A stretch of 64,000 bases of DNA from Sulfurivirga caldicuralii (lineage in GTDB: Bacteria; Pseudomonadota; Gammaproteobacteria; Thiomicrospirales; Thiomicrospiraceae), in NCBI RefSeq assembly GCF_900141795.1, contig NZ_FSRE01000001.1, positions 372,001 to 436,000 of the forward strand. Reading direction: 5' to 3'. The position numbers and the translations under genes were made by a program. The notes beneath the pieces were generated by a model, which was not told where the DNA came from, searched no databases, and was given only the letters and a program-made list of their open reading frames with translations. Numbering within the stretch: position 1 is the stretch's first letter; each line of letters begins with the position of its first letter. Shown piece after piece: positions 2,358-5,763 of the stretch.

Positions 2358-2411
2358 GATCGTCCCTTGAGTTGCAATTTGGCAATTTTACCATTGAGGA
2401 GGAATTGATAA

Positions 2412-2747: not shown

Positions 2748-2809
2748 GGGTTCCTCCATAAAAAGATTGAATTGATGTGGCCAGCTCTTTTATGGTGATG
2801 GAGGAACCC
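2748..2809 (-). promoter_or_regulatory. Inverted repeat that can mask the ribosome-binding site of the membrane gene
   Basis: On the minus strand, GGGTTCCTCCAT (2809-2798) is perfectly complementary to ATGGAGGAACCC (2759-2748), which contains the GGAGG of the 2439-2744 gene. Inside it, CCATAAAA (2795-2788) pairs with TTTTATGG (2764-2757). The two pairings can be combined into a 16-bp stem with a 6-nt bulge and a ~23-nt loop, leaving the Shine-Dalgarno site double-stranded a few nt before the start codon. No uridine run follows, so it does not look like a terminator. A protein-binding dyad is the alternative. Confidence 0.6.
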
Positions 2810-2817
2810 TGTTCAAG

Positions 2818-3540
2818 TCAGAAGTCGCCCCAGCGGCTCTGCGCCGCCGCCAGCAGCGCACAACCGGCCGTTTCCGTGCGCAGGATGCGAGGGCCGAGAC
2901 GCACGGCGGTGAGGCCCGCATCCCGTGCCTGAATGACTTCCTCGGGCGTCAGGCCGCCTTCGGGCCCGACGAGAATGTTCAGAGGTTCAGGTGGCTGCCG
3001 GATGGCAGAAAAGGGCTGCTCGGCGTAGGGATCGAGCACCAGTCCGGGGCGAAACTGGCGCAGCCATTCGCCGAGGGTGAGAGGCGGCAAAACCTGCGGC
3101 ACCAGGTTGCGGCCGCTCTGCTCACAGGCGGAAATCACCACCTGCTGCCAGTGCTGCAGCTTCTTGCCCAGCTTGTCGCCCTTGAGCTTGACCTCAACGC
3201 GTTCGGTAAACAGCGGCTGAATGGTGGATACGCCCAGTTCGCTGGCTTTTTGCAGCGTCCAGTCCATGCGCTCGCCGCGGCTGATGCCCTGGGCGAGACA
3301 GGTGGTAAGCGGCGATTCGGTCTGTGGCGCTTCTGGCAGAGCAATGATGCGCACGGTGGCACTGCGTTTGCCAGTATCGATCAGCTTGGCATGGGCGACG
3401 CCTCCCTGCCCGTCGAACACTTCGAGGGTGTCGTCCCGTTTCAGACGCAGCACGCGGGTGAGGTAATGGGCTGCCTCGGGCGGCAGCGGCAGCTCGGCGT
3501 GCAGAACGTAGGCTTCGGGCAGGTAGAGGCGCGTTTTCAT
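2818..3540 (-). CDS. rsmE: 16S rRNA m3U1498 methyltransferase RsmE
   Basis: The product of 240 residues belongs to the SPOUT methyltransferases and methylates N3 of U1498 in 16S rRNA using S-adenosylmethionine. An N-terminal PUA-like RNA-binding part (TRVLRLKRDDTLEVFDGQGG) is followed by the SPOUT knot with the signatures LVGPEGGLTPEE and LGPRILRTETA that form the SAM pocket. Start ATG 3540 overlaps the metF stop as ATGA and the family length fits; longer in-frame extensions run into metF. It is the third gene of metK-metF-rsmE, so the SAM-making enzyme and a SAM user are transcribed together. Confidence 0.95.
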   Translation of the reverse strand: MKTRLYLPEAYVLHAELPLPPEAAHYLTRVLRLKRDDTLEVFDGQGGVAHAKLIDTGKRSATVRIIALPEAPQTESPLTTCLAQGISRGERMDWTLQKASELGVSTIQPLFTERVEVKLKGDKLGKKLQHWQQVVISACEQSGRNLVPQVLPPLTLGEWLRQFRPGLVLDPYAEQPFSAIRQPPEPLNILVGPEGGLTPEEVIQARDAGLTAVRLGPRILRTETAGCALLAAAQSRWGDF

Positions 3541-4403
3541 GCCGGGTGGTGGATGGTGAGATTGCGGGCGATGCTCAGGGTGGGCTCCACCTGGTTCATG
3601 GTGTAGAAGTGCAATCCGGGCGCGCCGGCGTCCAGCAGGCGCTGACACAGGGTGGTGACAAAGTCACGCCCGAAGGCAATCAGCCCTTCCATGTCACCGC
3701 GGTCAGAGAAGCTTTCCAGCCGGCAGCGCAGCCAGCGGGGCACTTCGGCACCGCACATGCTGGAGAAGCGGATCAGCTGATCGTAATTGGTAATGGGCAT
3801 GATGCCGGGCACGATGGGCAGGTCGATACCAGCCTGCTCGCAGCTGTCGATAAAGTAGAGGTAGCTGTCCACATTGTAGAAGTACTGGGTGATGGCCTCG
3901 TCGGCGCCCTGATCCACCTTGTACTTGAACCACTTGATGCCTTCGTCGCAGTTTTTTGCCTGCGGGTGGGTTTCCGGATAGGCGGCCACTTCCAGGGTGA
4001 AGCGATCGCCGGTTTCCTCGCGGATAAAGCGCACCAGATCGGAGGCGTACTTGAATTCGCCCGGATCGAGCATGCCGGAGGGGAGATCGCCGCGCAGGGC
4101 GACGATGCGGTTGACACCCAGCTGGTCGTAGGTGTGCAGCAGTTGCAGCACGCTTTCGCGCGTCTGGCCGATGCAGGTAAGGTGCGGCGCGGCATCGTGC
4201 GGGGTCTGTGTCTGGATGTATTCCACCGTCTCCACCGTGCGTGCCTGCGTGGTGCCGCCGGCACCATAGGTGACGGAAATATATTGCGGCTTGAGCGCCC
4301 CCAGCGCGTCGATGGTGCCTTTCAGCTTTTCGAAGCCGGCATCGGTGCGCGGCGGGAAGAATTCCAGACTCAGCGGTTGCGGATATTTCTGTTGGGACTG
4401 CAT
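3537..4403 (-). CDS. metF: 5,10-methylenetetrahydrofolate reductase
   Basis: This 288-residue FAD-dependent TIM-barrel enzyme reduces methylene-THF to methyl-THF for methionine synthesis. Typical stretches are LSLEFFPPRTDAGFEKL at the N-terminus, ISVTYGAGGTTQARTVE, NRIVALRGDLP and GIMPITNYDQLIRFSS. Length equals the bacterial norm (~290). It follows metK after a 41-bp gap that contains a GGGCGCC-CC-GGCGCCC hairpin, and it overlaps rsmE by 4 nt. Together with metK the locus supplies methyl groups. I saw no SAH or SAM riboswitch consensus in the metK-metF gap. Confidence 0.96.
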   Translation of the reverse strand: MQSQQKYPQPLSLEFFPPRTDAGFEKLKGTIDALGALKPQYISVTYGAGGTTQARTVETVEYIQTQTPHDAAPHLTCIGQTRESVLQLLHTYDQLGVNRIVALRGDLPSGMLDPGEFKYASDLVRFIREETGDRFTLEVAAYPETHPQAKNCDEGIKWFKYKVDQGADEAITQYFYNVDSYLYFIDSCEQAGIDLPIVPGIMPITNYDQLIRFSSMCGAEVPRWLRCRLESFSDRGDMEGLIAFGRDFVTTLCQRLLDAGAPGLHFYTMNQVEPTLSIARNLTIHHPA

Positions 4404-4444: not shown

Positions 4445-5602
4445 TTACAGGCCGGCGGCGGCGCGCAGGGCGTCGGCCTTGTCGGTCTTTTCCCAGCTAA
4501 ACTCGGGCAGTTCACGCCCAAAGTGGCCATAGGCGGCCGTCTTGTGGTAGATGGGCCGCTTGAGATCCAGCATGGTGATCAGGCCCTTGGGACGCAGATC
4601 GAAATGCTCGCGTACCAGCTGCTCGATGGTTTCCAGCGGCACCTTTTCCGTGCCGAAGCAGTCGAGACTGATGGAGGTGGGCTTGGCAACGCCGATGGCG
4701 TAGGACACCTGAATTTCACACTTGTCCGCCAGCCCTGCGGCCACAATATTCTTGGCTACATAGCGCCCCGCATAGGCGGCGGAACGGTCCACCTTGGAGG
4801 GGTCCTTTCCGGAAAAGGCGCCACCGCCGTGGCGGGCCATGCCGCCATAGGTGTCCACGATGATCTTGCGGCCGGTAAGACCGGCATCGCCCACAGGCCC
4901 GCCGATGACGAAGCGGCCGGTGGGGTTGATGTGGTATTTGGTGCCCTTGTGCAGCCACTCGGCCGGAATCACCGGCTTGATGATCTCTTCCATCACTGCT
5001 TCGCGAATCACTTCATTGGAAATGTCCGGATCGTGTTGGGTGGAGACCACCACCGCATCCACGGCGACCGGCTTGCCGTCGCGGTAGCGCAGCGTGACCT
5101 GACTTTTGGCGTCGGGGCGCAGCCACGGCAGGTGCTTGGCCTTGCGCAGAAAGGCCTGCCGCTCCATGAGGCGGTGGGCATAGTAGATGGGCGCGGGCAT
5201 CAGCTGCTCGGTTTCGTTGGTGGCGTAGCCAAACATCAGCCCCTGGTCGCCGGCGCCCTGCTCGTGTTCTTCGGACTCGTCCACACCCATGGCAATATCG
5301 GGTGACTGTTTGCCGATGGCGGACAGCACTGCACAGGTGTCGCCGTCAAAGCCGTAGTCGGCCTTGTCGTAGCCGATGTCCTTCACCACGCCGCGGATCA
5401 GCTCTTCCAGGTCCACCCAGGCTTCGGTGGTGATTTCGCCGCCCACCAGCACCATGCCAGTCTTGACGAAGGTTTCGCAGGCGACGCGGGCGTCCTTGTC
5501 CTGTTCGAGGATGGCGTCGAGAATGGCGTCGGAAATCTGGTCGGCAATCTTGTCGGGATGGCCTTCGGAAACGGATTCAGAGGTAAAGATGTACTCGCTC
5601 AT
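4445..5602 (-). CDS. metK: S-adenosylmethionine synthetase
   Basis: The 385-residue cytosolic enzyme makes SAM from methionine and ATP. Family signatures are present: [20 protein letters not shown] at the N-terminus, [12 protein letters not shown] in the middle and the glycine-rich loop [19 protein letters not shown]. Start ATG 5602 fits the E. coli length (384). It heads metK-metF-rsmE behind a strong sigma70-type promoter and a ~125-nt leader able to fold. That leader suggests post-initiation control, but no known riboswitch consensus was recognised. Confidence 0.98.
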
Positions 5603-5727
5603 TTCAATGTTCCTGTTATCGATGGAAAATGAGCGGCCTTGCAGGCGGGAGGGATGGCGATGGGCTGTCCTCTCGCTTTAGCCGCACTTGTTACGCGCCC
5701 GCAAGCTGAGACTCAAATCGGCGCGAA
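5603..5727 (-). promoter_or_regulatory. Potentially structured metK 5' leader
   Basis: The predicted untranslated leader can form a stem of CGCGCC (5725-5720) with GGCGCG (5699-5694), and a long-range stem of GCGGC (5685-5681) with GCCGC (5637-5633) enclosing a purine-rich loop. The length is unusual for this compact genome. It does not match the SAM-I, SAM-II, SAM/SAH or SAH consensus as I know them, so any regulatory role is inference. Confidence 0.35.
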
Positions 5728-5733
5728 TTTTTA

Positions 5734-5763
5734 ATTATAGCGTAGTTGAGTGGCTTGGTTCAA
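5734..5763 (-). promoter_or_regulatory. Sigma70 promoter of metK-metF-rsmE
   Basis: On the minus strand TTGAAC (5763-5758) and TATAAT (5739-5734) are separated by 18 bp. Predicted transcription start is near 5727. This leaves a leader of about 125 nt before the metK ATG. The -35 box overlaps the last codons of the upstream ATPase gene on the same strand. Confidence 0.75.

Follow-up and report, generated by a model that had tools for sequence, protein, structure and literature searches.

A long stem over the ribosome-binding site of a lineage-specific membrane-protein gene downstream of metK-metF-rsmE in Sulfurivirga caldicuralii, possibly a lock on read-through translation

RNA thermometers of the ROSE and FourU types hold the Shine-Dalgarno sequence in weak, mismatched stems or behind U-rich anti-Shine-Dalgarno tracts that melt near the growth temperature. 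Protection of another kind is described for IS10 (Tn10) and IS200, in which the ribosome-binding site of the transposase gene is guarded against outside transcription, according to PMC2965389, which cites Davis et al. 1985 and Beuzon et al. 1999; PMC3196728 also describes IS200. Here we analyze a stem that spans the Shine-Dalgarno sequence of a small gene, orf101, in a 64,000-nucleotide stretch of S. caldicuralii DNA (hereafter the window, whose numbering is used for all positions unless another contig or locus is named). The features described lie on the minus strand.

Geometry and surroundings of the stem

The 5′ (anti-Shine-Dalgarno) arm of the stem, GGGTTCCTCCAT (2798–2809), begins 9 nt after the stop codon of rsmE and is complementary at 12 of 12 positions to the 3′ arm, ATGGAGGAACCC (2748–2759), with 38 nt between the two. 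The 3′ arm carries the Shine-Dalgarno sequence GGAGG (2757–2753), which stands 8 nt upstream of the orf101 start codon, ATG at 2744–2742. Read along the minus strand, the order is TGA (the rsmE stop), CTTGAACA, GGGTTCCTCCAT, CACCATAAAAGAGCTGGCCACATCAATTCAATCTTTTT, ATGGAGGAACCC, CAT and ATG. A second copy of CCAT lies in CCATAAAA (2788–2795), an exact 8/8 complement of TTTTATGG (2763–2756), with which it can pair in a bulge-shifted register. The full predicted hairpin consists of the 12 bp, a 6-nt bulge and 6 further pairs, and the inverted repeat occurs only once in the genome. A first-pass annotation had described perfectly complementary arms, one of them holding the GGAGG of the 2439–2744 gene, and an adjoining second pairing made available by a CCAT duplicated in the upstream arm; both observations are exact. 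Its statement that the Shine-Dalgarno sequence is buried also stands, as a folding prediction, for any transcript that arrives through rsmE.

By translation, coding score and a structure model, orf101 (2439–2744), a lineage-specific gene, encodes a predicted three-helix membrane protein of 101 aa. When the longest reading frame of each strand was scored for coding, that of orf101 reached 78.5 and that of the opposite strand 28.0, and the structure model has three long helices with a mean pLDDT of 80.8. No family match was obtained in Pfam, NCBIfam, PHROGs or PADLOC, the fold search returned nothing at E 0.001, and comparison with PDB sequences gave no significant match.

The minus-strand gene order is metK, metF, rsmE, orf101, gshA. 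The S-adenosylmethionine synthetase gene metK (4445–5602) is the first gene of a presumed operon and is followed by metF (methylenetetrahydrofolate reductase, 3537–4403) and by rsmE (16S rRNA m3U1498 methyltransferase, 2818–3540, stop codon 2820–2818), which is directly upstream of orf101; downstream lies gshA (TIGR02049 type, 1050–2357). A scan of a 3.5-kb stretch listed four terminator-like sites, against 2.8 expected by chance. One of these sequences, a hairpin with a T-rich tail, follows orf101 (2408–2431); none was listed between rsmE and orf101, so that read-through from the upstream genes is to be expected. The 3′ arm of the stem was also considered as a transcription terminator and was rejected, having no T-run after it. 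Before gshA, at 2385–2401 (minus strand), there is an extended −10-like motif, TG-N-TA(A/G)AAT, common to three Sulfurivirga loci; the relatives have it across the stop codon of rsmE (L004, 2218–2235; L005, 1428–1445), and here it comes after orf101.

Among named relatives, Sulfurivirga MAGs come closest to the locus. In the two genus-mates whose sequence covers the end of rsmE, this gene runs directly into gshA, with neither orf101 nor the stem (the contig of the third stops within rsmE), and rsmE followed by gshA is a frequent order across the wider family. Since the two genes adjoin directly in the genus-mates, the orf101 segment and the stem are an addition, one peculiar to S. caldicuralii or to the strain. 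Searches of 57 relatives, 369 genomes of the class, a species-level genome collection, viral contigs, plasmids and phages yielded nothing homologous to orf101 or to the stem, so that neither conservation nor covariation speaks for a lock; weak matches among the 369 class genomes look like transmembrane segments of the FtsH and NuoM types. No other orf101 copy and no transposase were seen.

A SAM-II-like element in the metK leader

At the head of the read-through transcript, in the metK leader (5661–5734), a permissive Rfam search gave a SAM-II-like element, a match to the riboswitch family SAM_alpha (SAM-II, RF00521). The match scores 27.2 bits, with E 2e-4 in a search of 301 bases, and is below the gathering score of 36. 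In the bacterial family, matches were found in 55 of 59 genomes, the best reaching 34.8 bits and none exceeding the cutoff; weak matches also occurred in 8 of 14 control genomes, so that the 55-genome tally is not itself evidence. The evidence lies in the shared sequence: every one of the 30 loci that were read (L106–L135) has the core GCGCC-GATTTG-A..-AGCTTGC-GGGCGC-...-GCTAAA-GCG, and nearly all of these core-bearing loci lead into a metK start. P1 is nearly invariant across loci, and covariation therefore adds nothing. Judged from these sequences, the metK-metF-rsmE operon of this family of Gammaproteobacteria (Sulfurivirga, Thiomicrorhabdus, Hydrogenovibrio and their kin) is probably controlled by a SAM-II-like element, and the whole operon, including any RNA that reads through into orf101, is probably under SAM control.

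A possible translation lock or an accidental quasi-palindrome

The explanation that we place first, and hold tentatively, is that the stem is a constitutive lock blocking translation of orf101 from metK-metF-rsmE read-through RNA. In such RNA the sequence just past the rsmE stop codon would fold onto the orf101 ribosome-binding site, and the long RNA would yield little orf101 protein, whatever the growth temperature. Expression of orf101 would then need an RNA with its 5′ end downstream of about 2803, generated by an internal promoter or by cleavage. Computed for 37 °C, the cost of opening GGAGG is 12.7–15.2 kcal/mol with the 5′ arm and 5.0–5.9 kcal/mol without it. Taken by the position of the 5′ end, this cost is 14.2 kcal/mol at 2809, 7.5 kcal/mol at 2805 and at most 5.9 kcal/mol from 2803 on, so that past 2803 most of the computed block is lost. 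A short TATGG/CCATA hairpin still partly covers the site in the short RNA and accounts for 5–6 kcal/mol at 37 °C.

A candidate internal promoter (2787–2816) combines TTGAAC (2816–2811) with either TAAAAG (2792–2787, spacer 18) or CATAAA (2794–2789, spacer 16), and the 5′ arm of the stem coincides with its spacer. Promoter geometry would place the RNA start near 2782, leaving out the 5′ arm; such self-started RNA would be translated well, and the metK-metF-rsmE read-through RNA would not. The candidate scores 8.4, a moderate value that falls in the upper 25% of upstream regions and in the upper 3.4% of coding controls, and its TTGAAC hexamer recurs as the −35 element of the strong promoter of metK. 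The computations show the stem, its dominance over the second register, its stability and the loss of most of the block in the shortened RNA; read-through, a working promoter, a change in protein output and any gain from silencing orf101 are inferred. The complete scenario is a young, species-specific membrane-protein gene at the tail of a SAM-controlled operon, silenced in the operon RNA by a stem with a 5′ arm that also serves as spacer in the gene's own promoter, with only self-started RNA being translated; taken whole, it is unlikely.

Nearly as likely as the lock is an accidental quasi-palindrome, which template switching (an error of local copying) or plain chance could have produced as the orf101 segment came into being between rsmE and gshA. 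An accident of this kind may lower translation to some extent, without selection having been involved. Its origin would suit a segment that is young and absent in genus-mates, and the arms do look like an inverted copy, imperfect and with CACCAT inserted. How exceptional the stem is was assessed on the 598-kb contig that holds the window (one of seven contigs), at 555 start sites predicted in this analysis by hexamer score.

By length, the stem stands out. No perfect stem over a Shine-Dalgarno region at the other predicted starts among the 555 matches its 12 bp, the next being 9 bp, and it sits exactly on the Shine-Dalgarno sequence. Stems of at least 12 bp arose once in 11,100 shuffled-upstream controls; for 555 genes chance would supply about 0.05 of them, and for the whole genome more. 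Dinucleotide shuffles of the orf101 upstream stretch itself paired equally strongly in 18 of 40,000 cases (p ~4.5e-4), which speaks against an accident.

Energy gives a different answer, and here the evidence turns against the lock. The duplex energy, −25.0 kcal/mol, ranks 19th of the 555 starts, and 19 such genes are expected from shuffles of all genes; the cost of opening the site ranks 29th of 555, and the z-score of the whole fold is only −1.3. Both ranks make the pairing ordinary for starts in this genome, as an accident would predict. The orf101 upstream stretch has a higher A+T content than most, so that the strength of the stem is unusual for that stretch and not for the genome. Nor is there a general enrichment of start-site stems in the genome, stems of at least 7 bp being found at 13 of 555 starts, against 2.5% in controls. 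We conclude that the stem is unusual for its composition and place, that after the genome-wide look it is still open to doubt, and that it goes modestly beyond chance. Another stem over a Shine-Dalgarno sequence, of 8 bp with a 36-nt loop, precedes a 151-codon gene on contig C7 (start 46021, minus strand); its 5′ arm lies between TTGAAA and CATAAC, a layout like that of orf101, and its length is at chance level.

Other readings and comparison with known systems

Ribosomes that finish rsmE could perturb the stem, making orf101 output depend on the translation of rsmE. The rsmE stop codon (2820–2818) comes just before the start of the arm at 2809, and a terminating ribosome covers roughly 12–15 nt downstream, far enough to extend to the base of the stem. 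The computed opening cost, 14.2 kcal/mol with the arm complete, falls to 10.8 kcal/mol once the arm has lost its first two bases and to 7.5 kcal/mol once it has lost four. The footprint would touch only the first few pairs, however, and most of the stem could stay closed; coupling of this kind seems improbable.

A far slighter chance attaches to a thermosensor or ligand switch working through the two registers, as the first-pass annotation had proposed. Both registers are present in the sequence, and the idea was a reasonable one for a thermophilic genus and an operon of SAM synthesis. The annotation took the two pairings to be mutually exclusive, as in an RNA switch. In the folds computed here the second, hybrid register (the outer 8 bp plus CCATAAAA/TTTTATGG) is 3.7 kcal/mol worse, has an occupancy of 1–2% and is the same hairpin except that the 6-nt bulge is displaced, all of GGAGG being still paired. 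Once the outer arm is left unpaired, CCATAAAA/TTTTATGG pairing carries a penalty of 13.7 kcal/mol in constrained folds at 37 °C. Minimum and alternative folds thus gave one dominant closed hairpin and no on/off pair, and in the long RNA no site-exposing fold is, by these predictions, energetically within reach.

As a thermosensor the stem fares no better. S. caldicuralii is reported to grow at 30–60 °C (PMC4814524). The predicted probability of the 12-bp stem is 1.00 at 20–60 °C and 0.999 at 65–70 °C, and that of a fully open GGAGG is 4e-9 at 30 °C and still only 9e-7 at 60 °C; the stem is therefore predicted to be closed at every growth temperature. Folding was by ViennaRNA, with high-temperature parameters extrapolated and with ions, ribosomes and co-transcriptional folding ignored, so that this evidence against a switch is strong and not final. 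Neither FourU, ROSE nor any other thermometer family in Rfam matches the stretch, even at E up to 10. Nor does any ligand-binding RNA family match the stretch: Rfam gave no bacterial aptamer above its gathering score at 2700–2830, and a 7.3-bit cobalamin match on the opposite strand was taken as noise. SAM control, if there is any, would lie 2.9 kb upstream in the metK leader.

That the arms are inverted regulator binding sites or the end of a mobile element is the least probable reading: a near-perfect inverted repeat does overlap a promoter-like site, and by comparison with relatives the segment counts as an insertion, flanked by the 8-bp direct repeat GAATTGAT (2402–2409 and 2769–2776), but the inverted repeat is single in the genome and neither a transposase nor another orf101 copy was seen. 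As a target-site duplication GAATTGAT was rejected; the same 521-bp stretch has another 8-bp repeat, which puts it at chance level.

Among described systems, RNA thermometers such as ROSE and FourU share with orf101 a Shine-Dalgarno sequence within a stem; the orf101 stem differs from theirs in being a perfect 12 bp, predicted to remain closed up to 70 °C, and in having no Rfam match. With SAM-sensing translational riboswitches (SAM-II and others), the likeness lies in an operon containing metK and metF, and in the output of several of them, sequestering of the Shine-Dalgarno sequence, as in the orf101 stem. Unlike them, the 2700–2830 stretch has no aptamer, and it is the metK leader that carries the SAM-II-like element.

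The nearest parallel to the lock that we tentatively prefer is with IS10 and IS200. If the lock is not real, the locus is still a useful negative, a striking Shine-Dalgarno stem that is energetically ordinary for its genome. orf101 departs from these insertion sequences in being a single-copy orphan gene for a membrane protein, in lacking both a transposase and repeat ends, and in having an internal start that is a prediction only. It resembles them in the stem that would form over the ribosome-binding site in RNA derived from upstream, in this case by prediction only. Were the lock real, a single inverted repeat would insulate a young orphan gene in a busy operon from the transcription of its neighbours, an insulation otherwise known from insertion sequences.
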